A stretch of 64,000 nucleotides of DNA. It comes from Scenedesmus sp. ARA3 (taxonomy: Eukaryota > Chlorophyta > Chlorophyceae > Sphaeropleales > Scenedesmaceae). Below, in pieces: positions 8,150-62,185 of the stretch. Position 1 is the stretch's first letter; the number at the start of each line of letters is the position of its first letter. The notes under the pieces are model-generated. The model saw only the letters and a list, made by a program, of their open reading frames with translations. It made no database searches and was not told where the DNA came from. The position numbers and the translations under genes were made by a program. The stretch covers positions 62,001-126,000 of the forward strand of contig RWJK01001821.1 of NCBI GenBank assembly GCA_004335835.1, in the 5' to 3' direction.

Positions 8150-8475
8150 GCAGAGTGTGCAGCATGTTGCAAATCATCACAGGCTCTCACTGAACACGGA
8201 CAGCAGCCTGCAAGGCATCAACAGCCTGCACTGTGCTGCCATCAACAGCAGCGGTGCCTGGCAGCACCCTGCCTGACAAACCACCAGCTCAGAGTGCGCA
8301 GCATGTTGCAAATCGTCACAGGCTCTCAATGAACACGTACGGCAGCCTGCAAGGCATCAACAGCCTGATTTTTCTGCCGTCAACAGCAGCGGTGCCTGGC
8401 AGCACCCTGCCTGCAAAACCTCCAGCGCAGAGAAAGCGGGCAGCGTGTATTCACAGGCTCTCAATGAACACAGAC
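8150..8475. repeat. Tandem array (unit about 138 bp) over the stop codon of the receptor kinase
   Basis: Two long copies and one partial copy of a unit containing CAACAGCAGCGGTGCCTGGC and TCACAGGCTCTCAATGAACA start near 8152, 8290 and 8426. The rightmost copy includes the real stop codon (minus strand TGA at 8453-8451). The others lie in the presumed 3' UTR and repeat the last codons. The unit length resembles the splice-site arrays elsewhere in the window. Confidence 0.8.
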
Positions 8476-8772
8476 GGCTCCAGATGGCTCCCGTGCAAGC
8501 ATGATTGCCGGCTGCGCTCCGGCTGCTGCCGAGGCATCCGCTGCTGCTGCTGCTGCTCCTCAAACACCAGTGGCGCTGTCTTGATCTGCACCCGCTGGTG
8601 CGTGCACACCCCAGGCGAGCTGTGCTTGTCAGCGCTGCATGCAGGTGCAGAGGCCGGGCACTGCTGGCACGGCAATGCAGCAGAGCTTGCGTAAGTCCCT
8701 GAGCTGCTGCTGCTGCTGAGTGTGCTGATGTGGCATGCACCAGATAGCCCGCCGTCGCTGCTGAGCCGCGTG

Positions 8773-8816
<44 letters not shown>

Positions 8817-11174
8817 GGCCCATGCCTCGTTGCTGTCGAGTAGTGCAGCTGGCAGCAGCGTAACAGCCTGACCGCCTCGAGCTTGCCAGGCAGCCAGCCC
8901 TTCTGCAGAAGCAGAAGGCGTCTGCAAGCCCATCGCATGGCTAGAGCATGTGCGGTGCAGCAACTGCTGCTGCACCGCCTGCTGCTGCTGCTGCTGCTGC
9001 TGGTGCTGGGCGAACTGCGCTGCCTGCTGCTGCTGTGCCTTCTGCACTGCTAGCTGCCTGTCACGAATCATGAGCTCCAGGCACTCCAGGATATGCTCAG
9101 CAGAGGGCCGGTCAGCAGGGTCCACCGACCAGCTGCACAAGGACAACAGCAGGGGCCGCACACATGTACAGTCAAGGTGCTGCCTTACGGAGTAGTTGGT
9201 CGTTGTTTGTGCAGCAGCGGCCAAGCCAGCAGTTGGTGATTTGCGCAGCTGCGTGACTGCAGGAGCAGTACACAACAAGTTTGCAGCGACTGGCGATGCC
9301 AGCACATGTAGTGCGTTGAGAAGCCCGTGTGCAACAAGTGCATGTTGTTATGTAACATGTCACATAACACTCACCAGGTTGTCATCAGCAGCGAGTAGTC
9401 CTCCGGCATGTGCTGTGGGATTGGCGGCCGCTCGTTGCGCAGCACCACTGCCTCAAAGTACTGCCCGTAGTGCAGCTTCCTGTTGTAGCCAGCAAAGAAA
9501 CAGATCAACACCAAGGTTCAATAGCAGCAAGCGTGTGTGGCAGGTGGCGTATATAATACTCCTGCTGCTGCTGCTGCATGCCCCTTCCCAGCCTGACACT
9601 CGCCCGGTCCACAGCGTCAGCAACTTGATACCAAAGAAGTGGAGTAATGCATGATTAAGTGCAAAAAAGCAGCAACTCAGCTGCCAACATGCAGCAGCCC
9701 ACCCACCTAAGGCCTCCTGCCCCGTCCACAGTGTCAGCAGCATGATACTTATGTGCAGCACAGTAAAGTGATGTCAAGGAACACACAGTGGAGCAATTGG
9801 GCCCGTCAAACGTGCAACAGCCACACCTGAAGGCCTCCTGTCCTGTCCACAGGGTAAGCAGCATGATGCCAAAGGCGTACGAGTCTGCTGCCGGGCTCAT
9901 GCGCCCAAAGCGCAGCATCTCAGGAGGCATGTGGCTCAGCGTGCCAACCTGCAATGCGTTGTCAGCGAGGCAGCGCACAGCAGGGCACAGATCACAGCGA
10001 CCTCAGGGACAGCCTGGCACATGCACACCAGCGCAGTGCATAGTTGGGTACTGTTGGGCTATCAGCAGCAAGGTCTTGATGGCTGGCATCAGCCAGCTGC
10101 TGCTGCTGCTGCTGCTCACCGTGTTGGTGGTCCTGTGTGTGGAGTGCTGCTTGATGACTCGGCTCAGCCCCAGGTCGGCCAGCTTCGCCACCAGGCCGTA
10201 CGGCGCGCAGCGGCTGCTGCTCACCAGCACGTTGCGCGCATTCTGACACAGCAGCAGCAGCAGCAGCAGCAGCAGCAATTGTGTTTGTTGCACCTCGCAA
10301 GAGCCAGTGTGACATGCGGCCTGCCCCTCACTCTCCCAGCCGCGTGCAAGCACAAAGCAAGGCAGCGCTCACGCAACATCAGCCTCATGCCAAGCAGCAG
10401 CAGCAGCAGCAGCATGCTCACCAGGTCTCCGTGCACCACACATGCCGCATGCAGCGCCTGCAGCCCGCGCGCCGCGTCGCGCAGCAGCAGCAGCCGCCGC
10501 AGCATCTGCTCGTCTCCTTCCAGCTCAGGCAGCCACTTGGTGGCAGCCAGGTTGGCCAGGGTGCCCTGGTCGCAGAACTCCTGCAGACACATTTGGTGAT
10601 GTAACATGTCATGTAACAATGTACGTAACGACATTTGTAACAATGAGAGGCAGCCACTTGGTGGCAGCGAGGTTGGCCAGCATGCCCTGGTGGCAGAACT
10701 CCTGCGGACACACAGTTGATGTATGTCACGTAAGACGCCACAACGTATGTAACAGCGCCTGAAACAATGGAAGCAGGTGATGGGCGTTTGACAGCGCTGG
10801 GTGGCAGCGAGGTTGGCCAGCGTACCCTGGCCGCAGAACTCCTCCTGCAGCGCGGGTGAGGTGGGAGAGGGAGAGGTGAGCAGCGTCGGGTACAGATTGG
10901 CACATACTACATCAAGGCTAGCGGGACGCACACTGCGATCCTGCCAGCAAAACCCAAACGGAGAATTGCCAAACTGCAAGATTGCACCAAATTGCCGGCG
11001 GCTCACCAGCACTAGCATCGTCTTGGCCCGGGCAAGCTCCTTCAGGCTGCCACTGACTTGCGGGCTGAAGCGCGCATCATTCGAATTGATGATGCCGGGG
11101 TACCAGCGGTACACTGGGGTGTCTTCATCAGTGGTCAGCTCCCGGGCGCCCCCTTTGGCAGATGACCAAGGTGC

Positions 11175-11208
<34 letters not shown>

Positions 11209-11326
11209 GCTGCTGCTGCTATGTTGGCTGCTGCTGCTGCCGTCGCATTTGCTGATGGGCTGCTGCTGGGTGTGTTGTGGCCGCTGGGCAGCGGTATCAA
11301 TGCAGCCGGCAGCCTGCTGTGTTGCA

Positions 11327-11358
<32 letters not shown>

Positions 11359-14300
11359 TGCCGGTGCTGTCCGCTGCTGTCCCTGCTTCGCTGCTGCTGC
11401 TGCTGCTGCTGCTGCTTGTCCAGCGACCCTTTCCGCTTGTGCTTGCGGTCGTGCACAGCAACCATACGTGCCGGCAAGCTGATATCAATGGACACCTGGC
11501 TATCATCTGACACAACTTCAGCCACACAGCAGCTCGGATCCTCCGTGCAAGCATCAGCAGCTGCCCGCCGCTGCAGCAGCACATCTTCATCAGCAGCAGC
11601 AGAAGCACTGACCCCACACTGCCCCACCACTGCATCACATGGCAGCGCCCTATCATCGTCAGCACACCCACTGACCCTGTGCAAGCCAGGGCCAGGCGCA
11701 CTGACTGCAGCGGCGCTGCTGCTGTGATCGATAGGATGAGGCCAGACAGCAGCAGCGCTGATCTGCTGCGCCTGTGCCTTTGCGTCTGCCAGGTCACGCA
11801 GGGCAGCAGCAGCGTTTGCTGCAGTGGCGGCTGCGCAGGCTGCAGCAATGCCGGCAGTGCAAGAGCTAAAGCTGCCTTCATCGGTGTGGTCTGGGCTCTG
11901 CATGAAAGTCCTGAAGTGGAAAGCGCGCACGATGTTTGGATGGTTGAAGGACAACATCAGGGTGACCTGCAGCAGCAACCGGCAGCAGCAGTGTGATAGT
12001 AAGCGGTACTGCATTGCTGCTGGCGTGTGCGCTTGCGTGGAGTACATGTGCTGGTGTTGCGCTGCGGTGGGCTGCCCTAAGCAGCGCATGTGCATGTGAT
12101 CCACTGCTGCCATTGCTAGCGCACCTCGTTTTCGACGGCTGCTGTCGTCTCTGAATCATGCTCGATGACCTGCGGCAGCAGCACCAGTCGCTCAGCACCA
12201 CCAACACAATCCCAATACCATGCCAGATCACGAGTTTATGCAACATCGGTAGTGCTGTCTGGTGTGCTGATCCAGTTCCAGCAGAGCACAGCAGTCCACG
12301 TATGCAGGCAGGCTGGGGAGCGGCACACCGCCTGTGCTGTGCTGCACCGCATGCACCTGCCCACTGCTGAGACGCTGCTGCACCACAGCACCCACCGCAA
12401 TTTCTAGCACAGCTGCTGCTGCAGTGCACTGCCCTGCAGCCATGCTAGCCCCGCCGCTGCCATCATCATGGAATCACCAACAAGCCTGGCAATAGCAGCC
12501 CGCTGCCATGACAGCATCGGCTACCTACCTTTATAGCCACTTCCCTGCCACCCCAGAACCCTTTGTAGACCTTGCCAAAAGACCCTGCGCAGCGATGAAT
12601 CAAATCAGAACCCCAGCAGCAGTGACAGCGACACACACGCCCGGCTTCAAAGGACAGAATTCTAGATGCATGTGCATGCATGCCGTAGTCCTCAACAGGC
12701 TGTACATGCAAGCACATCCCGTGACACATCAGATGCCAGTTATGTGACAGAAGTCTTACGACACGTAGCAAGTTGCAGACCAGCAACAACAAACTTCCTG
12801 CACAGTAACATGACATGGCCCAGCGGCGCACCTGCGCCCAGCATGACGCCCCACTGGATGTGGTCATCCCGTGCAATGCATGTACATCTAAGTCTCACTC
12901 CTCAACGGGATTTCATGCAAGTACAGCCCCTCCACCATATCCAGTCAAGCACCGCCGTGCTGCTGAACGTCAGGCTGATGCCGGTTGAGCGACGACGTTC
13001 GTAACATCACGTAAACAACTTGGGGAGTAAATGACGTGTGATAACAATAATAACAAGGTCCGGCGTCACACCTGCGCCCAGCATGACGCCCCACTGGATA
13101 TGATCATCCCTTGCAATGCTGAGGGAGGGTGCCGTGCTCTCTGTGGTCATCTGCCAGCCCCGTGTATCCAGCAGCTGAGGCTGCGGCTGGTCAACGCTGC
13201 TCTTGACGTCAGCAGCTGCTGCTGCAGATGGCGCGGCACTGCAGCAGCATGCGGAGTACACAAGCAGGTGTGCATGATGCCGGGAGAAGGGCTGCATGGC
13301 TGTGTGACTGTGTGGTTGCGACGAAAGAGTGCCTGCTCTGCTGATGGTTGCGCCGCATGCCGCTGCTGTCCCTGCACATTGGCTCACCTGATCTTTATGA
13401 GCCCCTGCTCAATGTCAGGGCCATGCGGGGAGCTGCCAGAGCCACTTCCAGCTGCCACATGCCTGCTGCTGCTCCCGTCGCTCCCATCACTCGACTTGTC
13501 GAGCTGCCGCTGCTGCTGCTGCTGTGTGGCACGCCGCCGCCTTCGCACCAACCAGACAACCGCCGCTGCTGCCAACAGTACACCTGAAGCAGGGGCAGGG
13601 GCAGGAGCAATGGATATAGCACAGGCTGAGGCTCAGAGCTGACAGACATAAATGCTGCTTGCAGGACAGCAGCGGGGCCACATGTGGCGTACAGCTGGGC
13701 TCCAAGAGCCCCACGTGCATTCCCGGCCGCTGCGATGAAGCACAGGATCGTCCCCATGTACATGCATGCTGCTGACACATGCAGCGTTTGACTGCAGTGT
13801 TGCCGATCTTTAGCAAGGGAAGCTAACATGCTGTGATGCTGCTGTGCTGTCATGCTGTCATGCTGTCGTGCTGCGCTGCTGCAGGTGGCGCACCTCCCAC
13901 CACGCAGCCCACCATTGCTGCCACCAGCACGGTGGGCTGCTGGCGTGCTGCAGCCGCCTCATGGCTGGCATTCTCCATCTGCTCATCGATCAGGCTGTTC
14001 ACGCACGCATCCGATGACTTGATCTTCAGGCAGTCCTCCGACACAGTGGCCACGCAGATGCGCGTGGTATTCTGCACCAACTGCAGCACGCACAGAGCAG
14101 CAGCACCCGCATGCAATCTTGGTGAGCATGGTGAAGCGTACGTGAGATGATATTTGAGAAGTGCAGTTGAGGAATGAGCACATCGTGTGCGCAGTGCAGG
14201 GTCAGCACGCAGCATGCAGCTGCTGCCGGCGCACTGCCAGCCTGGTGAACGGCAAGCAGCTGCTGCTGCATGTGCAAGGCTGTCATGCTGCTGCTGCTGC

Positions 14301-14881
14301 TGCTGCTGCTCACGATGGTGAAGCCTCCAAGCAGTCCCCTGCCTTCCTGGTATGCCAAGGGCAGGTCAGTCGCAAAGTCATCCAGCTGCAGCTGCTTGGA
14401 GAACACCTTGCCCTGCAAACAGAGCAGAACACGCAGCCGCGCCAGAACAACAGGGCACGCGTCAGCAGGAATGCCATATGTCCTCCTAGCCAGCGCTGCT
14501 GCTGCTGCTGCTGCTGCTGCCCAGTGCCACATGCACCATGTCCTGGCAGTCGCCGGCCCGGCTGCTGCTGGGCGAGTGATTGCAAACTCAGCACTGCTGC
14601 TGCTGCTGCTGCTGCTGGCCGTCTCCTCATCTGCAGCCCCCTTACTCTCGCACACAGCACGGTGCTGCCATCATCAAAAGCAACACGATCAACCAGTCAC
14701 CTGGAAGGTGGTGGTGATGGAGCGCACGCGCTGCTGCATGCCCTTGTTGGGGAACTTGCTGCTGCGTGCGTAGCTGGTCATGATGAGCTCCGTTGAGATG
14801 GAGGCGCTGGTGCAGGCAGGCCGCACGCGCTGCGTGTTGTACAGCGCCAGCACACTGCCGGGCCGCCCGCGGAAAAAGTCT

Positions 14882-14924
<43 letters not shown>

Positions 14925-19977: not shown

Positions 19978-20013
<36 letters not shown>

Positions 20014-22112: not shown

Positions 22113-24445
22113 TCATGCAAGCAACTCCAGGCTCTCCATCACAGATGGCGACCCACTCCGCGACTCCTGCTGCTGCTGCTGCTGCTCAACACTTGCAGCG
22201 CCAGCGCCTGCTGCTGCTGCTGTGGCTACCTGCTCTTGCTCCTGTCCAGCTGCAGCATCCATGCCCACAGCAGCAACCAGGGCTGCTGCCGCAGCTTCAC
22301 CTGCAACCGGCGCTGCCGCTGCTGCAGCCGCAGCCGCAGCAGGCGAAGCAGCTCTGCTACTGCGCTCGCGCGCGCCGCGCACAGTGCCCACTGCTGCTGC
22401 TGCCACAGCCGGCTTATACTGCAGCTCTGCCAGTGCCGCCCGCAGCTGCTGCAGCTGCCCGTACGGCAAGCTCACAGCCATGGCATCAATCAAGCCCTCA
22501 ATCTGGCTCCCTGCAGATGGCGTCGGCACATACTGCATGCGCCGCAGCGCCACCAGCAGCCGCACCAGCTCCGGAGCATCTGCTGCTGTCACTTGCTGCC
22601 CTGCAAGCTGCCCCATGAACGCATTCATCCACGCAGGCGCAGGCTTGTAGCCGACTGCTGCCAAACTAGCTACTAGTACGGCCTGCTGGCCTAGCGTAAG
22701 CTCAGGCAGGTGCCCCTGCACCTGCGCCATGAACAGTGACATGAACACGGGCCCCGGCCGATGCTGCTGCTGTGACAGCGCGTCGATCAGGCCCACATGC
22801 TCCGGTGCTGACAGTGCATGCAGCGCGGCCCGAGCCTGCATCAGCAGCAGATCAATCCAGGAAGGGTCTAGCTGCATTCCAAGCCCTGCACACGCCACCA
22901 CGAGTGACACCGCCGCACTGCTGCTCAGGTGGCTGCTGCCTTTCACTGCTGCTGCCAGCAGCTGCTGCAGCCAAGCCTCGCTTGGCCGCTGCTTCAGCGC
23001 TGCTACGCTGCGCACAACTTCGGCACACTCCTGCGGCCGCAGCGCTGCGAGGGCTGCCCCTCCGACTTGGCGCTCGATCTGGCTGATGACATGCTCGGGT
23101 AAGCGGTAGCCCATACAGGCGAGTGCGGACAGCATGCGGACCACGCTGCCGGGTGGGCAGGCGGGCAGCTGTGCGGCCATCTGGCGCACAAAGAGGTACA
23201 GCCAGAAGCGGTCCGGCGTGACGCGCAGCGCGGCTAGGCAGGTGATGACTGCCTCCATGTGCTGCAGGGAGCAGGAGTGATGATAAAGAAGGGAAGCGAA
23301 ACAGCGGGGTGGGCAGAGCAGCAGACACTGTCAAGATACAGCGGGGATGCCAGATGTCGCTCGACACGGATACGACAACAGTTGAAACAGCGTAGGCAGA
23401 CTGCAATAGAACACATGCATGCGAGATGCATTCCACCATTAGTATTAAGCCATTCGCAGCAGCTCTGGCGATCTGTAAAACCCACCTGCGGCTGCAGCTG
23501 CGGGTGTGCTGCCCTGGCTTCCAGGTAGCGCTCAAAGGTGGTCATGAAGTGCTGCAGCCATGCAGTGGTCAGCACAGTGGGGCTACGCCTCGCCGTGATG
23601 TTGCTGCTGCTGCTGCTGCCGCTGCTGCCAGCCTGCGCCACTGCTGCCATGTCTATCTCAGGCGGCGGGCAGGCGTACGGCAGCTGCTCTGCTGCTGGCT
23701 GCTGCTGCGCCCCCATCAGCACTGAAGGCGCTGCAGTGGGACTGCTGCGGGTGAGCTGCATGGGTGGAGGCGCAGCGCCAGCCACGCGTGCTGCTGTCTG
23801 TGTTGCTGTCAGCAGCAGCAGGGCCAGCTCAGCTGGTGTGTAATGCACCAGTTCAGTGCCTGCATGCTGCAGCATGGATCTGGCCCAGGGTACAGAGGGT
23901 TTAAAGCCTAAGACCTGCAGCCGAGCAAGCAGCTGGCCCACCTCCTGGTGGTGCAGCTCCTGCAAGTGGAGTGCTGCTGCGTCTGCGAGCGTAGTGAGCA
24001 GCGTATCTAGCTGCTGCTGCTGCGCCGGCGGCAGTGCCCTAGGCTGTGCGCAGCTGCTGAGCTGCTGCAGAGCAGCTGTGATGTGGCTGTAGCTCAGCTG
24101 CTGCTGTTGCTGCTGTACGACTGCAGCGACCTGTGCCCAGTGCCGGCACTCCTGCAGCTGCTGCAGCAGCGGATCCAGTTGCTGCTGGTGGCCGTTTACG
24201 GCCCGCTGCTGCTGCTGCTGCTGTGGTTCCTGCTGTGCTGCGCTAGCTTGCTGCCTGACACTGCCTGGCCCTTGCTGCTGCTGCTGCCCCTGGCTGCCCC
24301 AGGGCTGTGGCAGCCAGCCGTTTTGCTGCTGCAGGGTCTGCTGCTGCTGCACAGTCACTGCCACTTGAATGCCAGGCTGCCTGAAAGCCCGGCTGTCATC
24401 AGTGAATGGAGCTGGCACGGCTGCTACTTGTGCTGTCACGCGTGC
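22113..24445 (-). CDS. Octatricopeptide (OPR)/FASTK-like organelle RNA-binding protein, 5' end not found
   Basis: Two exons, 24445..23486 and 23261..22113, join in phase 0 through CAG|GTGGG and CAG|CAC to give about 702 residues. The N-terminal third is Gln-rich. The rest is built of helical repeats with the recurring pattern L..L..LG..P...W...F, for example QVLGFKPSVPWARSML, MQLDPSWIDLLLMQAR and AVGYKPAPAWMNAFMGQL. This spacing is that of OPR repeats, abundant in green algae, where such proteins control chloroplast or mitochondrial mRNA stability and translation. No C-terminal RAP domain is visible. The acceptor at 24446 implies at least one further exon upstream carrying a start and probably a transit peptide; I could not place it (candidate near 25063-24990). 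The C-terminus is poly-Ala/Gln and ends SVMESLELLA. Confidence 0.68.
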
Positions 24446-29642: not shown

Positions 29643-30809
29643 ATGCAACAGCATGCAGCCCGAGCCAGGTATATGTGCTTGTGTCTGCTGCTGGCGCTGT
29701 CATGCTGCTGCTGGATCACTGCTGCCGAGCCTGTCTGCAAGCCGCAGGTGCGATTTGGTAATGCTGTAACACGCTACTTGGCTGCTGAGCAGCAGCAACT
29801 GTGGTACCTGCAGTGCATCAGGACCAAAACAGCCACATCAGGGTTGGCAGTCCTTTTGCAAAGTCATCCCTACATCCCGCAGATGCTTTGCATGCTGCCA
29901 AGCAGCCAAGTCAGACTCAGCAGCATACAGCTGCTTCTGCACGAAACATTTGTGCAGGCGGTGTGTTTGACAGATGAACTGCTGATGCTGGTTGGGGCTG
30001 CTGCTGGCTGCAGGGCTTGCTAATGCTTGATGACCCGCACCCACCGTACCGTGTGCGCCTGCCGTTCTGTGACAAGGTGTGCAGCTGCCTGCAGCCGCCA
30101 TGCAGGAGGGTGCACCATGCAATCAGACATTGCTCGGTTTGCAGCATAGCGCAGCATCAGTTGGCAGCAGCAGGTAGCAGGGGCAGCAGTTGTTTGGCTG
30201 TGTGCTGGTGCCCTTATGCTCACAGCAGTGCAGGCCAACCACCATAGCTCACATCAACCTGCTCTAGTAACGGTCTTCTGCAGCAGCTGCGCTGAACACA
30301 ACATGACCATGTCAACGCTTGTAGCTGTGTTGCCGCTGCAGCATGCCACATGCCAGCTCTTCTGCGCACAGTTGCTATCGATCACAACAACCTCTGCTGT
30401 CGCTGTTGCCGCCGCACTGCTGCAGTACTGCTGCAGCTGCTGCAACGCCAGCCACGCGCTGGCCATCCAGCGCAGCGTGGCCCCCCTGCTGGCTGACGAG
30501 GAGCTGGGGCTGGCCTGCAAGGCGGGGCTGGTGGCCCTGGCCTGCAGGCTGTGCGACCCGCAGGTGCGGCTGGCGCATTTTGAGGCTCAAAATTTGCATA
30601 TGTTGAGGCTGTGTTCAAAGGGATTTTGAGTATTGCCTGGCCTACAGGCTGTGCGACCTGCAGGTGCCGTGCATTGTGAGGCTGGGGCTGGCTCTGTGTT
30701 TCTAGAGTTGATTTGAGAGGTGCAGCTTTGCATACCTTGCAACTGCAACTGTGCCGATCCCATGCCAGGCAGGCCTGGTCGTAAGCGCTAATGTGCATTC
30801 ACAAGTACA

Positions 30810-30848
<39 letters not shown>

Positions 30849-31178: not shown

Positions 31179-31221
<43 letters not shown>

Positions 31222-33686: not shown

Positions 33687-33721
<35 letters not shown>

Positions 33722-35128: not shown

Positions 35129-35178
<50 letters not shown>

Positions 35179-36945
35179 AGGCATCCCCATCAGCCTGTCC
35201 ATCGTGTACATGGAGGTGGCTGCGCGCCTGGGGCTGCGCATGGCAGGCGTCAACCTGCCCGCACACTTCATGATACGGCCGCAGGTGCGGGCCCGCGCTG
35301 TGATGCCAGCAGCAGAAAGCTAGTCTTGCTGTTGTGACTGCGGTCGTTGCTGTCTGCAGGTGCGCAGACGTCAACTTGCATCACTGTTGAGGTGTGCGTT
35401 TGCTGTTTGTTGGTGCCTCGTCAGTGCTGCACTACGCTGAACGCTGCTGCTGCTGCTGCTGGCCAGGTGGAGGGCATGGAGCTGATGATTGACGCCTTCA
35501 ATGCAGGGGAGCTGACGGCGTTGCAGGACGCCGAGGACGTGCTGGGCAAGCTCATGGGCTACCAGGTGGGCGGCTGGCCAAAAGATATTCCTCACAATGG
35601 GGTTGTGGCCAGGCAGAGAACGGCAGCAGTGACATGCTGTACCGAGTGCGGCAGCGCATTGTGGCTGCAGGTGCTGCTGCGGCTGTGTGGTGCTGTGGAC
35701 TGCAGGGAGGGGTTGCTTACACTGGCAACGGCAGCAGCTTGTAACATGGGCGCTGCGTAGCGGTTGCAAGCGGCACGGGGTGGGTTGTGGGGCTGGCTGC
35801 ATAGGCAGCGAGGTGGCTGCTTCCTGCAGGCCTGCTGCTGCTGCTGCACTTCCTGGGCTGGTGTGAAAGTTTGTGTGCTGCGCGTGCTGCTGTGCCTGTG
35901 GCCATGGGAAGCTACGCTTGCTGTGACACCCTGCTGGTCCAGCTGTCTCTGCTGCTGTGCTGCAAAGCGCAGGTGAAGCTGGATGCTTGTTTTTGGCCTA
36001 AATGATGCTTGCATGCTGCTGTGCCTGTTCTCGCTGCTCGTCTGCTCGTCTGCTCGTCTGCTCGTGTGCTCTGCCGCAGGTGAAGCTGGACCCTCGCTGT
36101 GTGCGCGGCGACACACCCTACTTCAGCGGGCGGCAGCTGCTGCTCAGGCTTCTGAACAACCTGCGCCAGATCTACCTCACGCTCAACATGGCGGAGGACG
36201 CGTTGGGCATTGTACGGTGCGTGGTTGGTGTACTGTTCATACATTGTTATGTTCACTGTTGTGTGTAAGGAGATGGGCTGGGGTAGTTGTAGTGCAGGAA
36301 ATAGGGGTGGGCATGAGAACAGTGGTGTGCTTGCAGCATGTTTTGGAAGCAGGCTGTAGGGCAGGTCATGCACAGCTGGGCGGACAGTGCACTGCTGTTG
36401 TCATGTATGGGCATGCAGCGGTGCCCTGGGGTGAGGGTGCAGTCTTCATTTGCATCGCAGTATGCTTGGTTTCACGCTGCCGCCTCACACAGAAATAAGG
36501 CATAAGTTGCAGCACAGGCAGGGACACATCTGGGTCCTGCAGGACAGCCTTCGTCGCGTGTCATTCATTCAAGCTCACGCCCTTACCACAACAAATATCA
36601 TTGTATCCATAGTATTGCATGGTGTTGACTGTTGAACCATATGTATGCTGCTGCAGGTACATGCGCGCAACTGCCCCTGCAGGCATGCTGCCTGAGCTGC
36701 AGCGTGACGAGGGCCTGTGTCTGTACGGCCTGGGCAGGCTGGCAGAGGCAGCAGAGGTGCTGGGAGATTACCTGCAGCAGGGCGCACCCAGCGGAGATGC
36801 AGCGGTGGTGACGGCAGTGCTCGAGAAGATACGCGAGCGGGCAGCCGAAGCGGCAGCAGCTGCGGCAGTTGCATCAGCGGCAGCAGCAGCTGCTGCTGCT
36901 CGTAGCAGTGGTGGCAGTGCAGAAGAAGATGGTGATGCCAGTTGA
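33408..36945 (+). CDS. SirB1/transglutaminase-like domain protein with TPR-like C-terminus, probably plastid
   Basis: Exons 33408..34446, 34729..34776, 35181..35284, 35467..35565, 36080..36216 and 36657..36945 join in phase to give 571 residues. After an Arg/Ser-rich N-terminus and a long Gln/Ser-rich stretch comes the SirB1 N-terminal domain: LDAALLIAKHAHPELD, INRVLYEVHGFGGNTEDYY, PDNSCINRVLETKEGIPISL, SIVYMEVAARLGLRMAGVNL, PAHFMIR and the 'LMIDAFNAGEL' segment. The C-terminal 150 residues (RGDTPYFSGRQLLLRLLNNL, NMAEDALGIVRYM) look like TPR helices that usually follow this domain. The family is related to transglutaminase folds but usually lacks a known enzyme activity, and its role in algae is unclear. 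Start 33408 (MAAAPHASHQ) gives a transit-peptide-like N-terminus; an intron near 33600 is possible. Ends in poly-Ala. Confidence 0.85.
35968..36095. repeat. Duplicated exon-5 acceptor side in the SirB1-like gene
   Basis: CGCAGGTGAAGCTGGA occurs at 35969 and at 36076 (real acceptor and first codons), 107 bp apart. Only about 16 bp are conserved, so this is the weakest of the splice-site duplications. Confidence 0.55.
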
Positions 36946-40779: not shown

Positions 40780-43700
40780 TCAAGTCCTGAACGTGTAGCT
40801 GTTGCTGCTGGTGACGTAGCGCACCCAGCGCTGCGGGTTGTAGTTGCGTTCCTTGCGCATTATCTGCAGGTACTTGAGGCTGATGCGGCTGGCGCTGAAC
40901 ATGGGAATCGTGAACTTCAGGTTCACGGGGCCGACTTCAGTGCGAAGTGACGCGCCAAAGGGCTTGGTGAGGGTGAGGCGCGCCCGCATGGACAGGTCCA
41001 TGCCGCCTGGACAGCGCAGTAAACACAACCGGTCAACACCGTATCTACATCACACACTCAAACAGTAAACATGCATACGGCTTCGAATGGCATCATTGTG
41101 CACACGCTAGGCTGCTGCGCGCCTGTGAACAGTATATACTGCTTGCAACCTGATCTTGCCGTTGCATACGGCATTGGTGCTACAGGTACACGCAGCAGCA
41201 AGCCCTCTACGCCGCATTTGCAATACACCTGTGCCAGCAACAAATTTACGCCCAGCGCAGCAGCACTCAACCCTAAAGCGCAGCCGCACCTGACACCTTC
41301 TTGAACCGCCAGCGCAGCAGGTGCGTCTTATCACTGAACTCCCAGCCCGCCAGCGCTGCCGAGCCTGGTGCATCCACCTCACAGTGCACGCGTGCTACGT
41401 GGCCAGGCAGCGGCAGCTCCACTTCTAGGCCTGAGGCGGCCTTGTCAGCAGGCACATCACACCACAGCCGCAGCCGCACCAGTGCCTGTGCGACAGCACG
41501 GAATCATGATGTGCAACAACAGCAGCAGCAGCAGTTGCAGCAGCAGCAGTCCAGCCAATTTTGAAGGGAAGAGGAAAATTCTCACCATGATAAGCAGCGG
41601 ATGGGACAAGCATTCACCAGGCAGACAGTCGCCAGATGAAGGCTTGTCCACTTGCGAGCCATACCACACTGCACAGCTCAGCGCGCTTTGCGTTCGCTGG
41701 CTGGGTCTGCCGCCATCGCGATGCTGAAGCAACATTAAGTTGGGAAAAGGGGCATGTCACACTGTGATGAGCTGTTTCAGCGCTGCGCACCTTGTGGTCG
41801 CTGGCTGGGTCTGCCTCCGTGGCGATGCTGAGCCGGAAGGGCAGCCGCAGCGCGTGGCTGGTGCGGTAGTTGGCCAGCGCAAACTCGCCGTCCGGCGGCA
41901 CCAGGCTGATGCAGCGCTCCGTGTCAAACGCAGACAGGTCAGCAACCTGGCAGCAGCAGCAGCAGCAGCAACAGCAGGCAGCGAGTGAGCCAGGGTGGGT
42001 GGAAACTGCAAATGATGAGGCAACCGTGCATACTTGAACACAACAAAACATCAGCAGTGCACAATCAGCAGCGGAACAAACAGCAGCAACATATCCTGGC
42101 AAGCAGGATATCTAAATCAGAAAGCACGCATGCTGTCCAGGAAGCACCAAACACACCTCGTGGAAGTTGACATCGTCCAGGATGACCAGGCTGCTGTCTG
42201 CAGCGTAGTCGCCCGCGCTGAAGCCGCTGCCTCCGCCGTAGCCGCCGCCGCCGGCGTAGCCGCTGCCGTCGCGCCGCGTGATGAGCAGGTCGTCGTTGAG
42301 CTTGATCTTGAGCGGCGGGTTGCCCGCCAGGTAGCTCTTGACCTGCAGTTGTGTTATGTTGTGTTATTTGTGTTATGTTATGCTTTGATAGAAAATTGAG
42401 CAGGTTATGAGGGCATGTGGGCGCACCAGAGCTGCAGACCATGTGCTTGCACCATGCCGCCGTCTTGGCTTCCACAGGCGTGCGCGTTAAAGCGTTCCCC
42501 AGCAACATAGCAAGCATGCAGAAACAGCGTACACGGAGGTGAAGACACATGCCCGGCCGCACCTGTATCGAGCCGTCTATCTGGCTGCTGATGGCGTGGC
42601 CTGCCGCGTTGAACGTAACCGCCAGCCGCTCCACTACATCCACGTAGATCTCGTCGCGGCGCTTGCCGTCGGTGCGGTTGGTGTCCAGCACGCTCTTAAA
42701 CACACCCGTGGGGCCCTTAGACAGCCCAAACAGCGGCTTGAGCGAGGCCTGCGGGAGCAACATGGACCGCATTGAGTAGCGGCACTGCTATATATGTTTG
42801 AGGCATGCGCAGGAAGCAGCAAGTTTGCAGCAGCGGCCCTTGACAGCCCAAACAGCTGGTTGACAAAGGCCGCTGATACGCAGCCACATGCACGCCATGA
42901 CACATTTTCGGTAGCACTGCAGCACATGGTGTTGATATGCGCATGTGTCGCATTGTGCGCAGAAGCCTCGGACAGTCCAAACAGCGGCTTGAGCAAGGCC
43001 CCCTCGCCCTACTCACTGGTGGCGTACCCTGGTCAACTTCGGGACCCTAGGATTTGAACGTCGCCCCCGTGGGGACTTTTAGCCAAAAAGTCCACACTTC
43101 TACCGCAGGTCCAGCTCGATGCACAATGTGTACAAAGTCAGCTGCAACAGAAGCAGTTCGTTTGCTGCCAGCATGCCAACCTCAACCCCCGGCCCCCCCC
43201 CCTCCTCTCTCGCATACGCCACGCGCCTCAGCTTGCTGTGCCCCGCCCACCCACCGGCGGCGCCACCACTGTGGGCTCGTTGAGCACAAAGGTCTTGAGC
43301 GCCTCCGTGCTGGTGTTCTGCGGCAGCCCGTAGTCCAGCAGCTCATCGAGAAGTTCGTAGATGAGCGGGAAGTTCTTGCGGATGGCCTCCTCGCTGATGC
43401 TGCCGCAGTAGTCCTGCAGGCATTGATGATGCGCAGAGTGGCAGGCGTGTGGGTTGATTTCAAGAGGGATGGCTGCTTGCGCATGATGCTGCTGATGGGT
43501 GTGCTGCTGCAGGCAACGTGGCTGTTGCTCAGCAGCCGCTGCTGCACGCCAGTGAAATGATTCAGCAAGCAAGGACTGTGTCTGCCAACTGCAACGCGCG
43601 CACGGCCCTCGGCCGCTGCTGCTGGACCTCCAGCAACACATGCTGCACAAGCTGCCACCACTGCCCGGCGCTGTTGCTGCGCACGTGCTGCTGTCCACCA

Positions 43701-45514: not shown

Positions 45515-48500
45515 ATGGCAGCGGCGACAGCAGTGCATAGACGCCACAATCAGGCATCCGCAGGACCGAGGCGCCTTGTGCGTGCGGCACGTCATTTCTG
45601 GAGTGTTCTCTTCCATGCATTTGCGCCAACAGCACTCGATTGTTGAGCGTGCTCCGTTCGCGCTCTGGCAGGGTAGTTGCAGTACTTTCTGACTCAGCAT
45701 GTACGTGCTTGCCATCCTGCAGGCAGCGCCAAGTGGCAGGCGCGTGCGTACGTGCTGGGCTGTGCTGTGCTGGCCTGCCTCACCACATGGCTGGCTGTGC
45801 AGATCTCATACGCGCAGAAGCATTTCAGCACTGGGCTGGCAGAGAAAGACCAAGGTGCGCTGCTCCTGGAGCCACCTGCAAGTGGAGTACTGCAGCTGCT
45901 GCAACTTCTGTGTTGCGGTCTCGCTGTAAGAGGTGCATGGCTGCAGGGGCTTTGTTCTCCAAGCAGCGGCAGCGGCTGCCAGTGTCTGCACTTTTTGGTT
46001 CAGTATGGAGTAAGTCGTGCTACTCACAGGCCTAGGAAACACTTGGTTGCAGAGGTTGCACTGCGGAACAGCCTGTCCATGTATCCCACATTGCCACATT
46101 GCTGCCGCCGCCTCTCACCCTATCTGCCCTGTACCTGCCGTTGCCACAATGCTTTACTGTGCCTGGCGCTTCCCTGTCTGTGATTCCTGCAAGCAGTTGC
46201 CTGGAAGGCTGCTGTGTGGGAGTTTGTTGGCATCATCTGCATAGCAGCGCCCCTCAAGGCGCTCGCCTTTTACACAGAGAAGCGCATGATTGCGACATGG
46301 AGAGCAGCGCTCAGCGAAGCACTCATAATGGCCTACACCAGCAACAGGTGCTACTTCCACATGCAGCTAGCACGTGGCACAGAGGGAGCGCCAGACAGCA
46401 GCGGTGCAGCTCCACAGCAGCAGCAGCTGAAGCAGTGCAACGCAGCAGGGTACTTGCAGGACGGCAGCGTTCCTGCAAGCAGTACAGCAGCGCCTGCAGC
46501 TGTCCTGCAAGCAGTAGAGCTGTCTGCCACACAGTACGCCCCTACTAGTGCAGCTGACAGGAGCAGTAGCGATAGAAGCAGCGATGCTGAGCGTGCTAGA
46601 GCTCTTGCAGGAACCCCCAGCAAGCCTGAGTATGTGTGTGTGCCAGCGCCTGTGCCTGGCCTGAGTGGTGCGTCTGCATGCGTGGACAATCCTGACCAGC
46701 GCATCACGAACGATGTGGCCAACTACGTGTCAACCAGTGTCACGCTGGTAGCCTTGCTGGGCAAAAAGGCGCTCAACTGCGCAGCGTTTGCAGGTGAGCA
46801 GCTGCAGGAGGCGCATGCGATGCTGTTGCAGCTTGGCATATCGCATGTGTGAGGACCTGCAGGCATGAGGCAGTGAACCTTTTCGCGCAGCGTTTGCAGG
46901 TGAGCAGCTGCAGGAAGCAGACGTGGGTGTTGTTGCAGCTGGCTGTTCCTTGTGTGAAGCGTTTCAGAGTCAAGTTTTGAGTCTAGCACCTGCCTTTCGC
47001 ACTTTTGTGCACTAATGTGTGTTCGCCGCCCGCCTGCAGGCGTGCTGTGGTCCATATCGCCCCGCCTGGTGCTGTTCCTGCTGGGCTATGCCTTCCTGGG
47101 CACGTTTGGCACTGCCGCTGTCTTCGGCCGCGCGCTGACCAGCCTGCAGCAGCGCATCCTGAAGCTGGAGGCAGACCTGCGCTTTGGCCTGGTGCGGCTC
47201 AGGTGGGGCTGCTGCGTGTGGCTGCAGCCGATAGACCCTTGGCTGCTGTCGGTAAGAACGGCTGGGTGTGCTTTGCATCCTAAAGCTGGAGGCAGACCTG
47301 CGCTTCGGCCTGGTGCGGATCAGGTGGGGCGGCTGCGTGTGGCTGCAGCTGATAAGACCCTTGGCTGCCAGTCGGTAAGAATGGCTGGGTGTGCTGTGCA
47401 TCCTGAAGCTGGAGGCGGACCTGCGCTTCGGCCTGGTGCGGCTCAGGTGGGGCGGCTGCGCTTCAGGCAGTCTTGAGTTTCAAGCGATGTTGTCCTAGCT
47501 GCTGCATGCAGCTGCAGATGATAAACCCTCAGACTGCTGGTGGTAAGATTGGTTGGGTGTTAGCGCCGGTAGCGCTGCATGTTGAGATGTGGTGAAACCT
47601 GCTGGCCCCTGCTGCCTGTGCCGTAGCCGTCCCAAACTGCCTCCACCCTGCTTGTCAAACCCCTTGCCAGGGAGAACGCGGAGGCGATTGCCTTTTATGG
47701 CGGTGATGCGCGCGAGGCGGCAGACCTGCGGCAGCGGCTGGCTGCCATGCTGCTGGTGCTGCTGCGCCGCATCAGCTGGCTGGGCTGCTACGAGCTGTGG
47801 GTGCGTGGGGTGCTGCTGTGCTTGTGTGCATGCACATCCACACGCTGCTTTGCTTGTATTCTGACTGTTGGGTATACGTACTTACGTACTTATGTACTTT
47901 ACATACTTACGTAACAGAATGTGCATGTTTACTACAGCTGCACCAGGCCGCCAATTCCAGCACACTGCATACATTTTAGAGTTGCATCGGCTTTGCATCA
48001 CAGGGATTGTTGCACGCTGGTCAACGTACAAACTTGCGACTGCTGCTGCTTTTGCTGTAACTGCACCCACACCTGCCATCCAATTGTTTATACTGACATT
48101 ATTTGTTGCTGTGCAGGTGACGGCGTACTCCTATGCCACCATACTGCTGCCCTCACTGGTGCTGGCCCCGGAGTACTTTCAAGGCAAGATTCCGTTCGGC
48201 ACGCTAACACAGGTGCGGCAGGCTGCCTTGTGAGCTGCGCAATGGGCATGGTGCCGAGAACCCTGCTGCTGCTGCTGCTAGTGCTGCCGCTGCTGCAGTA
48301 GCTGTGGTGCGCATGGTCAGCATGCTGAAGCATGCTGACGCAGGAGGATGTTTGGGGTTCTCGGGATCATTGCGCTCTGTCACATGCTGCACAGCCCACC
48401 CACCTCTGCACTGCGCCCTTTCCTGCCGGCTTGCTCACCACACCGCACACCACCACCACATGACATGCTGCATCGCAAACACACTGCTGCACGGTCCCCT

Positions 48501-49683: not shown

Positions 49684-49738
<55 letters not shown>

Positions 49739-50406: not shown

Positions 50407-50815
50407 GGCAGCAAGAAGCAGCGGCGTGTGCTGGGCTTCGATCATGCCTGGCACCGCTGTTGAGCTTGTGGCTGTACGTTCGGTCAGAGTGTTAATGGTT
50501 GGTAACCGTCGTCGTCCAACGTTCGGTTGGCATCGGCTGGTACAAGGTTGGCTTCGGCGCGGACTGTAAAAGTTTTGTCCGCATATAGATGAAAAGCAAA
50601 TTAGATCCATTATAAATTGGTGCGTTTGTTGACTGGCAACTCCTGCAGCTACCTGTTGTCCAAAGTGCCACCCGTCGCAGGCAGACACAGCTGCACTCAC
50701 TGCCTCGCGTGACACACACCACCGCAGCTTCTCTGCTGCACTTTTATTACTTGTGTCCGCGATTTCACCAAACAGCATCAAGCTTGCGAAATTAGATCTT
50801 GCTGCAGTGTCAAAC
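50407..50815. other. Intergenic region ABCD2-like / LRR gene
   Basis: About 400 bp between two genes on the same strand: 3' UTR of the transporter and promoter of the LRR gene. No exon seen. Confidence 0.4.
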
Positions 50816-51259
50816 ATGGCAGCGCACAGAGCGGTCGCATTGAAGGGGCTGCAGTTGCTTAGCCTCGCCAGCCTGCTGCTGCTGGCATATGTGCAGCTGT
50901 CAACGGCATATACGGACCCAGACCAACGTGCGCACGGGCGTGAACAGCAGTGCCAGCAGCTGCATGCAGTCTGTTACACAGTCTGCAGCAAGAGTAAAGC
51001 AGCCCTGCAATTAGTTCTGGGCTCCTGCAGGACTTGATACTTGTCAGCCCTGCAGCCTGCGATTTGTGCTGGCTGGAGCATATATATGTGATGATGAGCA
51101 GTGGCAGGTTGTGTTTCTTTGGCGGCCGCTGGCTAACTGTCACTGCTCGTAGCCAGACTCACCTCAAAAACCCAGGATGCAGGAGTTGCTCACAAGCAAT
51201 TGGAGCATGCTGCATGAGATGACACCTCTGTGTGCCCTTACCGCACCTGCTGCTGCACA

Positions 51260-51305
<46 letters not shown>

Positions 51306-52384
51306 ATCTCCTGCTTCACCCTGCAGTGGCCAGGTTCATCGCTGTGAGGAATGCCATGAACACGCGCAGCTCGAGCTCACACCTTGCTGCACCTGCTCAC
51401 CTGCTGCTGCTGCTGCTGCTGCTGCTGCCATCCTCGTCCTGCAGTGGCCAGGTTCATTGCTGTGAGGGATGCCATGAACACTCGCAGCGTGAGCTCACAC
51501 CTCTCTGCTCCTGCGCACCTGCTGCTGCTGCTGGCTGCTGCTGCTGCTGCCATCCTCGTCCTGCAGTGGCCAGGTTCATTGCTGTGAGGGATGCCATGAA
51601 CACGCGCAGCCCCTACTGGCGTGCCGCCACCAGCAAGTGGACCTGCCCCACGCCACCAGGCAACAGCGACAGCACCTGCGACCCCTGTGGCCGCGAGACT
51701 GAGGGCAACTGGTACCACATGCACTGCAGGGGGCAGAGCACAGGTGAGAGAAGGTGCTACAGGGGATACAGGCGCTGGCAGGGAAGGGGAGGGGTGGGGT
51801 GTAATGGAGGAGATCATGTGCAAGCTTGGTGGTTAGCTGTTTAGTGTGCTGGGGACACGTTGTGCTCATAGCGCGCTATGAGTATGCAACATGAATGCAG
51901 CATATCACCACAACCGATGAACGTTGGTGATCAACATGCTCTGCTGTGATAGTACGCTGGTAGCTTATTGCACCGCAGCACAGATACTGGCCTTTGAGCG
52001 CATCTTTTTGGGTGTGCTGCTGCTGCAGGGTGGGGCGAGTCTGGCAATGGAGTGATCGACGGCATGGTCACAAGCTCACACATCACAAGCGAGAAGGTGC
52101 GCATAACACTGCGTTGCACTGCGTTAACAATGTGCTCAACATCCGTTCAGCTGCAACTCCTTCCTTCAGTTGCACTGCAGCATCTGTGCTTCTGGCAAAA
52201 ACAAAAACACCGATGCGCGTGTCTGCACTTGTCCTACAATAATACAGTAACACAGCTGCTTCAACATAATGCATGCAGGTGAATGGCCCCGTGCCCAAGG
52301 AGTTCTGCCTGCTGAACCACCTGCGCGAGTTTGACTTTGGTGGGCGCGAGGGCCTGGGCTACCTCACAGGTGACATCACCGCTG

Positions 52385-52415
<31 letters not shown>

Positions 52416-52801
52416 GTGCCGGGAGATTTGGGCAGAACCTGACACGTGCGTGCCGTTTACGGCACAGGCAGCAGCAGCAGCAGCAGAAGTAGATCATGCC
52501 TTTTGGGCAGCGGTGGACCGGCCGTACACCGCCTTGCGCATGCATCAGCTTGAAACATTTTTTGACTTCAACTGCTGGCCACAGCTGCAGCCACTGCAGT
52601 GATGATGCGGCTTGACATGCTCAGCCTTGTGACCAGCTTGTTTGCACAGTGTGCGCACAGCTTAGCAACCTACTGTTGGAGCGGTGGCAGTGCTCATCGT
52701 GTGGGTGTATGAGACTTTGGTGTTGCAAGACCCTTGTGGCCTGCCAACATGCAAGTCGGTGGTTTGAAAAGGCAGGTGGGCGCACTAGAACAGAAGCATC
52801 A

Positions 52802-52893
<92 letters not shown>

Positions 52894-53792
52894 AGGCCCC
52901 ATCCCCAACTGGATTGACAACTGCTTCCCACTGATTGAGGAGCTGGACCTGAGCAACAACAGGGTGCGTGCGGGACAGCTGGGGGCAGCACAGCACTGCA
53001 GCACAGTGGTGTGGTGATGTTCTGTATGCAGTACATAACTGGCCTCCAGTTGTGTGACAGCTGCCACGGGTGCACGACGATCTGGGTGCTGTTGAAACCT
53101 GATACATATTTCAGGCTGCTGGCCACCGCCTTTTCAGCGCCTGCAGCTCTGCCCACCTGCTTAGTGATGCGGTTCTCTTTGTGCGCCGCCAGCGTGTTGC
53201 GTGTCACTATGGACAGTCTAGCATGAAAAATGCAAAGCTGCACACTTTCAAGCTGTTGTGTTGCTTTGCTGCAGCTCACCGGCACACTGCCGTAGTACCC
53301 AGCAAAGTTGCCCCGCATAACATGCTACCCTGCTGCCGTGCTGCCACCTGTGCGTCATGCTTTGCTGCAGCTGACCGGCACACTGCCGGAATACCTTGCC
53401 AAGATGCCCCGCCTGACAGGTGGGGACACGCCAGCCGGCCAACAAGCCAGCAAGCCAGCCAGCTCTGTCAGGCTGTTACTGCCATATTAAAGATGGACAG
53501 TCTATTGTGCTGTGAGTTGCTGTGACCAGTGGTGTCAGCTGCAGCAGGCCAGTGGCCCATCTTCTTTGAACCTCAGCTGCAGCGCGTGCTACAGTGGCTG
53601 GTGGTGTCAGCTGCAGCAGGCTGTCATGTTAGTTCATGGCATGCAGCTGGTGTAGGGCCTGCAGTGGTTTACCCCACATTATTACGTGATTCAATTGCAA
53701 CGTTCCTGCAAACCTGTTTGACAGGAGGCCAAGTCGAGCGCAACGCACTGGCGGGCAGCATCCCACAAACCAGCTGCTGCGACTCACTGCCA

Positions 53793-53848
<56 letters not shown>

Positions 53849-53930
53849 ATCACACCCCCAGAGGCCACGTTTGAGCACAACAACCTGGTGGGCACCACCC
53901 TGCAAGCCGCCTGCTGCAACTCACCACCAC

Positions 53931-53974
<44 letters not shown>

Positions 53975-55031
53975 CCATTCATCATACACATTATGCAGAG
54001 GCCTAGTTTGAGCACAACAACCTGGTGGGCACCATCCTGCAACTACCTGCTGCGACTCACCACCACATGCTGCTGCTGTTTTGCTGTGCATGCAGAGGCC
54101 AAGTTTGAGCACAACAACCTTGTGGGCACCATCCCTGAGGCCTACGGCACCATGGCCAGGGGCGTGCGGCGCTTCCAGGTGGACCACAACCACATGAGCG
54201 GCACCATACCAGCCTCCTTCGCGTGAGTGAGGGCTGCCATGCGTCACATGTTCAGTGTGTGTTGCATTGTATGTGTCTTGGGCTCAAGCTGGCTGCAGCC
54301 AGCTGGTTATGTGGCTGTCACGACCACATGAGCGGCACCCGCCTCCTTCGCGTGAGTGGTGCTGCCGCGTGTTGCATGTTTGCTGTGTGCTATACTGTAC
54401 ATGCTATGAGGTCAAGCTGGCTGGCTGGCTGTCATGACCACGTGAGCGGCACCATACCCGCCTCTTTTGCTTGAGTGGGGCTGGACTTACGGCTGCATGC
54501 TTGCTGAGGTTTGTGTGAGTTCTCAGGGCTCGAACCTGCTGACATCACGGTTGCTGATTGTTCGGCTTTCTCGTTTGTAACAGCGTTTACTGCCCGGTAA
54601 GGCCATGCTATGTAGCTTATTTGAGGATCAACCAGCAGCATTCCGTGCACTGCCACGCTGTGCTTCCTGCTGCGTGCTGCACTCCAGCTGCTGCTGCCTT
54701 GCAGCAACATGCTTGGCTTGGCCTGGTTGTCTCGACTGCATCATGAACACCGCCGACGCAGCTGTCCCTGCTGCTGCCACCGTATGCCTGCTGCTGCTGC
54801 TGCTGCTGCTGCTGTGGTTGTTGCAGCCGCTCTGCGCAGAACCTCACGCAGTTCCACATCGCGGGCAATGACTTCAGCGGCAACCTGTCCATGCTGCTAG
54901 CGGGGCACCTCACAACAGTGCTGGTGCAGGACAACCCAAAGCTGTGCGGCATGGTGCCTGCTAATGTGCGCTACGCAAAGAACTACAACCCCAGCAACAC
55001 AAACCTGGGCAAGCCCTGCCCCAGCAGCTAG
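50816..55031 (+). CDS. Secreted leucine-rich-repeat protein, eight exons with ghost copies
   Basis: Exons 50816..50927, 51567..51743, 52029..52096, 52279..52369, 52896..52963, 53371..53419, 54096..54222 and 54827..55031 join in phase to give 298 residues. A signal peptide (about 1-32, GLQLLSLASLLLLAYVQLST) leads to ARFIAVRDAMNTRSPYW and a Cys-rich cap (TCDPCGRETEGNWYHMHCRG) like the N-cap of plant LRR proteins. Plant-type LRRs follow: GPVPKEFCLLNHLREFDF, YLTGPIPNWI, LIEELDLSNNRLTGTLPEYL, FEHNNLVGTIPEAYGTM, DHNHMSGTIPASFA and FHIAGNDFSGNLS, then a Cys-containing C-cap (PKLCGMVPANV). There is no TM helix or kinase, so it is probably a wall or extracellular protein. Four exon edges lie in tandem arrays, making it the most duplicated gene here; which copies are spliced in vivo needs RNA data. 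Confidence 0.82.
51320..51615. repeat. Triplicated exon-2 acceptor side of the LRR gene
   Basis: TGGCCAGGTTCATCGCTGTG with its CTGCAG acceptor starts at 51327, 51445 and 51567, a spacing of 118 and 122 bp. Only the third continues into CCCTACTGGCG and the rest of the exon. The second is followed by GTGAGC, a usable donor, so a micro-exon there is conceivable. Confidence 0.93.
52802..52893. repeat. (CTG)n tract, about 30 units, abutting an LRR-gene acceptor
   Basis: Pure CTG repeats run to the CAG that serves as the acceptor of exon 5 (exon starts 52896). The repeat itself forms the 3' splice-site context. Confidence 0.92.
53270..53420. repeat. Duplicated exon 6 of the LRR gene with a nonsense copy
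   Basis: The 5' copy starts at 53275, 96 bp before the real exon at 53371. It reads LTGTLP and then an in-frame TAG, so it cannot encode the repeat, although its acceptor is intact. Confidence 0.88.
53720..54130. repeat. Four tandem copies of the exon-7 acceptor side of the LRR gene
   Basis: AGGCCAAGT(T/C)(T)GAGC... copies begin at 53726, 53862, 53999 and 54096 (real), a spacing of 136, 137 and 97 bp. The intervening CTG tracts (53795-53848, 53933-53970) differ in length. Copies 1-3 diverge after the codons for (V)GTI. Confidence 0.9.
54181..54478. repeat. Triplicated exon-7 donor side of the LRR gene
   Basis: The exon end around CACATGAGCGGCACC, followed by TCCTTCGC|GTGAGTG, starts at 54191 (real), 54325 and 54439, a spacing of 134 and 114 bp. 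Copy 3 has lost the donor (TTGCTTGAG). Confidence 0.9.

Positions 55032-56301: not shown

Positions 56302-62185
<5,884 letters not shown>

Follow-up and report, generated by a model that had tools for sequence, protein, structure and literature searches.

Decayed direct copies of exon edges within introns of a green alga related to Tetradesmus obliquus

Introns with copies of the adjoining exon edge

Many introns of the green alga Scenedesmus sp. ARA3 hold what look like real, decayed direct copies of the adjoining exon edge, typically 90 to 140 bases away from it. The analysis covers a stretch of 64,000 nucleotides (the window; positions 62,001 to 126,000 of contig RWJK01001821.1) together with 250 kb from elsewhere in the same genome (100 kb of contig C1435, 100 kb of C1306, and 50 kb of C1518; block positions on the latter two become contig positions when 100000 is added), a sample of 314 kb from an assembly of 87.3 Mb in 1567 contigs. 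By its sequence, the genome comes from a strain of Tetradesmus obliquus or from a close relative of it. A preliminary description of the window had reported segments spanning a splice site that are repeated inside the intron in six genes, and we refer to the extra copies as ghosts.

Comparison of the window with itself by blastn (E ≤ 1e-3, keeping direct pairs less than 1.5 kb apart) yields 18 direct pairs, which merge into 13 arrays with lags (spacings between copies, d) of 96 to 139 or 240 to 261 bases. These 13 arrays match those listed in the preliminary description for the kinase, folate-receptor-like, AP4M, ABCD, and LRR genes; in the sixth gene, encoding a SirB1-like protein, the array claimed at exon 5 dwindles to a 16-base match of 88% identity at 35243 (lag 121), which is not significant alone. 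Tandem Repeats Finder (TRF), which detects only the more complete arrays, independently recovers four of the 13, with periods of 118 to 137. The same blastn search finds 66 further arrays outside the window, for a total of 79, and the reported high density of direct copies across both donor and acceptor sites is thus repeated in the additional 250 kb. Density is patchy, with 39 arrays per 169 predicted introns in C1306, 26 per 152 in C1435, and 13 per 110 in the window. The C1518 block (100001-150000) has a single array in 81 predicted introns, and array density is strongly region-dependent.

The smallest lag overall is 86 and the median is 128 (n=79). Taking the smallest lag of each array, 58 fall within 86 to 150, 7 within 151 to 199, 13 within 200 to 265, and one lies above; the clustering at 117 to 123 described earlier was overstated, as only 10 of the 79 fall there. 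Multiples of three are not preferred (22/79). No inverted copies were found at exon edges in the sample searched, and the sole inverted pair within 1 kb sits in a predicted intergenic stretch. Five of the 79 arrays contain a pair with at least 97% identity.

Concentration at exon edges

Exon edges were predicted ab initio with a two-strand gene model trained on the sample itself (donor CAG/GTGAG, acceptor CTGCAG/G); a version trained without a minimum intron length collapsed to tiny introns and was replaced. Homology backs the predicted edges for XRN1 and for one ABCD exon. A predicted splice edge lies within 69 of the 79 arrays, a count that is biased upward because the gene model calls many ghosts exons. 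The other ten comprise two intronic arrays, two coding repeats within exons, one intergenic array (lag 532), and five overlapping a predicted gene end. We therefore note a second measurement, in which exons of at least 60 bases were masked and the null was built from randomly placed units of the observed sizes, with exon-internal placements excluded. Thirty arrays remain detectable: 27 belong to exon edges or gene ends, two lie in introns, and one (at 53262 in the window, placed by the preliminary description at an LRR exon) stays unassigned, whereas random placement predicts 42% at edges, 28% in introns, and 29% in intergenic sequence (27/30 versus 42%, p=6e-8); no detectable array lies away from a gene. 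The enrichment at exon edges over random placement thus holds, although the signal may be partly exon-derived because short predicted exons, mostly ghosts, stayed unmasked. Four of the 27 edge arrays (C1435:59029, 73787, and 80424, and C1306 block 13213) lie mostly in predicted intergenic sequence beside a gene end.

The copied part consists of an exon edge with its splice site, and the sequence between copies is intron-like. Donor-type arrays outnumber acceptor-type arrays (45 versus 22). In two-copy arrays the similarity extends to the exon edge in 48 of 53 cases and falls 8 to 82 bases short in the other five. It stops no more than 9 bases beyond the edge in 25 of the 53 (including the five that fall short), at exon identities of 81 to 98%, and this holds even for pairs of 97 to 98% identity (C1435:32079 and C1306 block 22647). 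Significant residual similarity of the intron stubs is present in 8 of 24 arrays ending at the edge, as against 32 of 42 others.

Codon pattern and divergence of the ghosts

Ghosts were compared codon by codon with their exons in 83 pairs in which the real side is evident; pairs were omitted if both sides or neither is exon, or if the copies lie over 300 bases apart, and per-array tests use one pair from each of the 67 arrays represented. Mismatches at codon positions 1, 2, and 3 number 107, 59, and 273, corresponding to 253 synonymous changes, 177 nonsynonymous changes, and 9 stops. The synonymous share, 58%, lies between the 39% expected for a neutral ghost facing a constrained exon and the 78% expected for two constrained copies, and is 59% with one pair per array (bootstrap 53-64%). 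By lag, the share is 51% (43-60%) below 160 and 66% (57-74%) at 200 or above. At 19 multi-copy edges, changes unique to a single ghost fall at positions 1, 2, and 3 in 22, 20, and 63 cases (63/105 at the third), whereas neutrality, modeled with trinucleotide context, predicts equal shares (p=2e-8, a value that is too small because the copies are related). CpG bias was considered as the cause of the third-position excess and rejected; mismatch is 0.26 at CpG and 0.15 elsewhere, with no effect of codon position. Loss of GC at third positions is about equal in ghosts and real copies (111 versus 103), where a neutral ghost would lose slightly more. Third-position divergence averages 17.8% and is compatible with one value across the 67 arrays (chi2 72.4, 66 degrees of freedom); ages spread uniformly up to 40% would yield a chi2 of 121 to 210. 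Frameshift indels number 20, in 12 of 67 ghosts. Judged from these counts, simple neutral decay from an identical copy is insufficient to give the silent differences of the ghosts, and the best reading of the pattern would be neutral decay overlaid on older silent differences.

XRN1 (C1306:117934-134861) supplies 19 of the 67 arrays. The gene model predicts 48 exons for it, a large number of which are ghosts, and 16 of 22 introns carry arrays. The encoded protein is identical at 1118 of 1122 compared residues, omitting a low-complexity part, to the annotated T. obliquus protein OEZ86_014473 (P0014), in which there is no internal repeat. A T. obliquus draft (UTEX 393), of 108.7 Mb in 1368 scaffolds, is a separate assembly. 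Among 549 codon comparisons in XRN1 ghosts there are 96 synonymous changes, 43 nonsynonymous changes, and 2 stops. Codons with an amino acid change or stop coincide with invariant residues in 13 of 44 cases, compared with 125 of 546 for all ghost codons, so the changes are blind to conservation; they include G295D and D297N in the GNDFLP motif, which we take to be catalytic. The search of relatives' proteins found none with an in-frame XRN1 ghost. On this codon evidence, the XRN1 ghosts are not at present maintained as protein. The nine XRN1 introns with a single pair average 413 bases, or 259 after subtraction of d, and the six array-free introns average 232; the earlier suggestion that the process lengthens introns holds to this extent, but there is no sign of selection for it. 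Of the five N gaps in the sample only one, 50 bases long, falls inside an array, a five-copy array of XRN1.

Splice sites and protein matches of the ghosts

GT is kept in 34 of 41 ghost donors and AG in 18 of 19 ghost acceptors. Ghost donors are weaker than their real counterparts in 20 of the 41 and stronger in 5 (p=4e-4); ghost acceptors are weaker in 12 of the 19 and stronger in 7, which is not significant (p=0.10). Toward their inner end, donor-type ghosts show no enrichment of acceptors (42% of 43, versus 45% of 734 control intron windows), and acceptor-type ghosts have fewer donors nearby than controls do (10% of 21 versus 29%). Because partner splice sites are not enriched, the ghosts look like dead half-exons, probably not alternative exons, and the suggestion in the preliminary description that usable competing splice sites are multiplied is not borne out.

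The end of the ABC-transporter exon at 47040-47202 in the window matches related proteins. Of ten matching proteins five extend past the exon end, P0002 and P0005 by only 17 and 10 residues, and P0003, P0008, and P0009 by about 30 to 60 residues in which, by eye, there is no ghost. The closest match, P0001 (93% identity), stops at the donor and is uninformative as to the ghost. Ghosts do mislead gene finders, as the ab initio model called many of them exons, and therefore the protein sets of Tetradesmus and its relatives may carry false repeats.

A possible origin in failed repair between homologues

The explanation that we favor, tentatively and at somewhat less than even probability, is that strand-annealing repair between homologues with similar exons and unlike introns fails and is finished by end joining, leaving ghosts that began as different alleles and later decayed. 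We infer a second homologue, a repair route, and an order of events, which might run as follows. A double-strand break in or near an intron would be repaired from a homologue with matching exons and nonmatching introns; one end would invade, copy through the intron and tens of bases of the exon beyond, and then be released. Because the introns do not match, we propose that the copied strand would be unable to anneal and hence would be joined end to end with the other end of the break. The product would contain, in order, the exon edge of the broken chromosome, its intron stub, and then the exon edge and intron of the partner. The ghost would differ from the start by allelic, mostly synonymous divergence, with neutral decay afterwards, and splicing would presumably skip it because it has one splice site and no partner; some arrays would later have gained further units of length d, unequal exchange being one possible route. 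Exon edges would mark the duplications because intron heterology between the homologues would block annealing. Together, the direct copies, edge bias, codon pattern, and uniform divergence fit copies that started as different alleles and then decayed, and the codon pattern is compatible with a diverged repair template, itself a presumed element.

Several points weigh against this explanation. The strain represented by P0014 differs from XRN1 here at only 4 of 1122 compared residues, because of which the allelic silent divergence of about 12 to 15% called for by arithmetic has to be assumed. The synonymous excess over the neutral expectation is modest for lags below 160, given the share noted above. 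Multi-copy arrays of constant period, such as C1435:73687 (lag 136), require a second process, the size range of 86 to 150 is not predicted, and the donor-type excess has only a post hoc explanation. Pairs from one array, or from XRN1, are not independent of each other, and the spread of divergence might also have been narrowed if young, identical repeats were lost.

Weighing the alternatives

Ordinary tandem duplications of about 120 bp could arise anywhere, by replication slippage or same-chromosome end joining, with those inside exons purged, those in introns and intergenic sequence fading fast, and those spanning an edge staying visible because selection holds one copy. This is unlikely, though a serious contender: ghost amino acid changes are blind to conservation, constant-period arrays exist, and residual intron homology is present in 40 of 66 arrays tested. 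However, the masked arrays are concentrated at edges and gene ends with none away from a gene (a figure that unmasked short ghosts may inflate), the third-position excess is specific to ghosts, and divergence fits one value, with few near-identical copies. It is less probable still that the assembly is a mosaic in which two or more divergent haplotypes were joined and unmerged overlaps of about a read length double each exon edge. The spacings do seem to resemble short-read lengths, the exon-only similarity, synonymous differences, and uniform divergence are as expected of two haplotypes, and the arrays are patchy along contigs. Two intact haplotypes are nonetheless ruled out for XRN1 by the two stops and the changes at invariant residues; the frameshift indels, the absence of duplication across four of the five N gaps (the fifth being within the five-copy array), and edges with two to four mutually distinct ghosts, some at constant period, also argue against a mosaic. 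Searches with the XRN1 and ABCD stretches gave no second location in the genome at the DNA level, and no consistent alternation of two haplotypes along multi-copy arrays could be discerned by eye. Assembly error, which the preliminary description had named as a way in which it might fail, is thus probably not the cause.

That ghosts are alternative exon ends or extra exons, kept through being spliced into some messages, is very improbable; the retained GT and AG dinucleotides and the synonymous excess are what it predicts, but partner acceptors are not enriched and partner donors are fewer, amino acid changes ignore conservation, the annotated XRN1 of T. obliquus is free of internal repeats, and d does not favor multiples of three. 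We give slightly less credence again to intron gain in which a piece of exon containing AGGT is tandemly duplicated to create a new intron of length d; this had been offered earlier as a model and does not hold generally. A few arrays have matching inner AG and GT with fair scores (C1306 blocks 22647 and 27290), but at only 11 of 69 edges does the inner AG/GT pair score best. A single predicted intron of length d was noticed (C1306 block 22651-22736), and its flanking predicted exon is missing from the T. obliquus protein; P0009 appears from its reading frame to have the intron after the ABCD exon and no ghost. Two further mechanisms were set aside. Templated insertion by polymerase theta should yield inverted copies too, and fits badly with their absence at exon edges; insertion of an exon piece alone is at odds with XRN1 introns that lengthen by about d, not by the shorter copied length.

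A wider form of the favored repair explanation, doubtful but distinctly possible, is that introns are an archive of other alleles, with a partner half-exon left wherever repair or recombination crosses from a matching exon into a nonmatching intron and annealing fails. If so, exon edges would be a natural line of homology breakage in very diverse or hybrid species, each ghost would be a dated sample of a lost haplotype, and recombination between homologues that are unlike would yield intron growth and decoy splice sites as by-products; one could then test within a single species how variation in intron length originates.

Comparison with known systems

Introner elements are small, intron-sized insertions that reach high density in algae as dispersed copies of one sequence family. 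The ghosts resemble them in being small, intron-sized, and dense in an alga, but differ in that each copies its own exon. Far pairs in the window number only four, each involving a triplet-repeat tract; for the other blocks only the number of far pairs was taken.

Pace et al. (2009; PMC2671141) attribute closely linked human duplications to synthesis-dependent strand annealing (SDSA), surveying insertions of at least 50 bp copied from within 5 kb; the donor was a partial exon/intron piece in 4 of 824 cases, and no constraint was evident in two full exons that had been duplicated. The ghosts share the close linkage (lags of 86 to 265 in 78 of 79 arrays, an added length of about d in XRN1, and aligned pieces of at least 30 bases) and the partial exon/intron content, but depart from the duplications described there by their direct orientation, their richness in synonymous differences, and the predicted splice edge within 69 of 79 arrays. 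Divergence has blurred the breakpoints of the arrays, where duplications of that class would show microhomology, filler, or small deletions. Failed SDSA closed by polymerase theta end joining generates tandem duplications in helq-1 worms, as described by Kamp et al. (2021; PMC8654963). As proposed here, a copied strand that cannot anneal has its copied part duplicated by end joining, and orientation is likewise direct, with no inverted pair at an exon edge; the cause in those worms is loss of HELQ and sizes range from about 100 bp to 10 kb, whereas the cause proposed here is unlike introns and sizes are mostly 86 to 150 or 200 to 265 bp. In a potato RNA-dependent RNA polymerase (RdRp) gene, a tandem duplication across an intron-exon boundary produced an intron gain, according to Ma et al. 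(2016; PMC4974935), and a piece of former exon is left inside the intron as in our arrays; that is one case in which a new intron was made, and here there are dozens, mostly without one.

Duplicated alternative exons have both splice sites and coding constraint in each copy, which the ghosts lack; the GT of one copy joined to the AG of the other at length d, as in intron gain, is seen at few edges; and the intact haplotypes, often beside gaps, that mark false duplications in assemblies were not found. A literature search aimed at splice sites duplicated together with pieces of exon yielded no paper, and the openings of abstracts listed by other searches do not describe the pattern; this does not imply absence from print.

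Arrays of the window and other repeats

Pfam supports kinase, adaptor medium subunit, ABC_membrane_2 transporter, and Transglut_core2 (SirB1-like) products in the window. The 13 arrays are as follows; the names folate-receptor-like and LRR are those of the preliminary description.

8145..8478, minus strand: kinase gene, array of about 2.4 units spanning the region of the stop codon, lag 139
9686..9867, minus strand: kinase gene ghost (9686-9746), donor side of predicted exon 9827-9948, lag 123
10527..10843, minus strand: kinase gene, edge of predicted exon 10422-10580 present in three copies (lags 121 and 261), any of which may be the real one
12810..13119, minus strand: kinase gene ghost (12810-12879), donor side of predicted exon 13072-13238, lag 240
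30536..30683, plus strand: folate-receptor-like gene ghost (30636-30683), donor side of predicted exon 30437-30563, lag 100
41674..41831, minus strand: ghost (41674-41727) in the adaptor-subunit gene (AP4M), donor side of predicted exon 41791-41946, lag 104
42720..43000, minus strand: AP4M ghost (42971-43000), acceptor side of predicted exon 42563-42748, lag 251
46779..46940, plus strand: ABC-transporter ghost (46885-46940), donor side of the exon ending at 46793, lag 106
47154..47460, plus strand: ABC-transporter gene, three copies (lags 121 and 244) from the donor side of exon 47040-47202
51261..51610, plus strand: LRR gene, acceptor side, three copies, lags 122 and 243; real acceptor near 51566 by eye
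53262..53418, plus strand: two copies at the acceptor-like TTTGCTGCAG, lag 96
53725..54137, plus strand: LRR gene, acceptor side of the exon starting near 54096, four copies, lags 136 and 243
54185..54483, plus strand: LRR gene, donor side of the predicted exon ending at 54222, three copies, lags 134 and 248

The exon assigned to the array at 53262..53418 is that of the preliminary description, the gene model having predicted none on that strand. In the array at 53725..54137 one ghost has, by eye, TAG instead of AAG, and a decayed middle copy near 42840 can be made out by eye in the AP4M array at 42720..43000.

Other repeats in the sample include a purely intronic direct repeat at C1435:30838-30957 (34 bases, 97% identity, lag 86) without a predicted exon, and diverged repeats within long predicted exons at C1435:63662-64600 and 91707-92412, with smallest lags of 207 and 168, multiples of three. 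The lone inverted repeat, at C1435:99036-99709, has 30 bases and a lag of 644. Many CTG/GCA triplet runs are detected by TRF along the full length of the window, and some of these are poly-Q, poly-S, or poly-A in predicted proteins.

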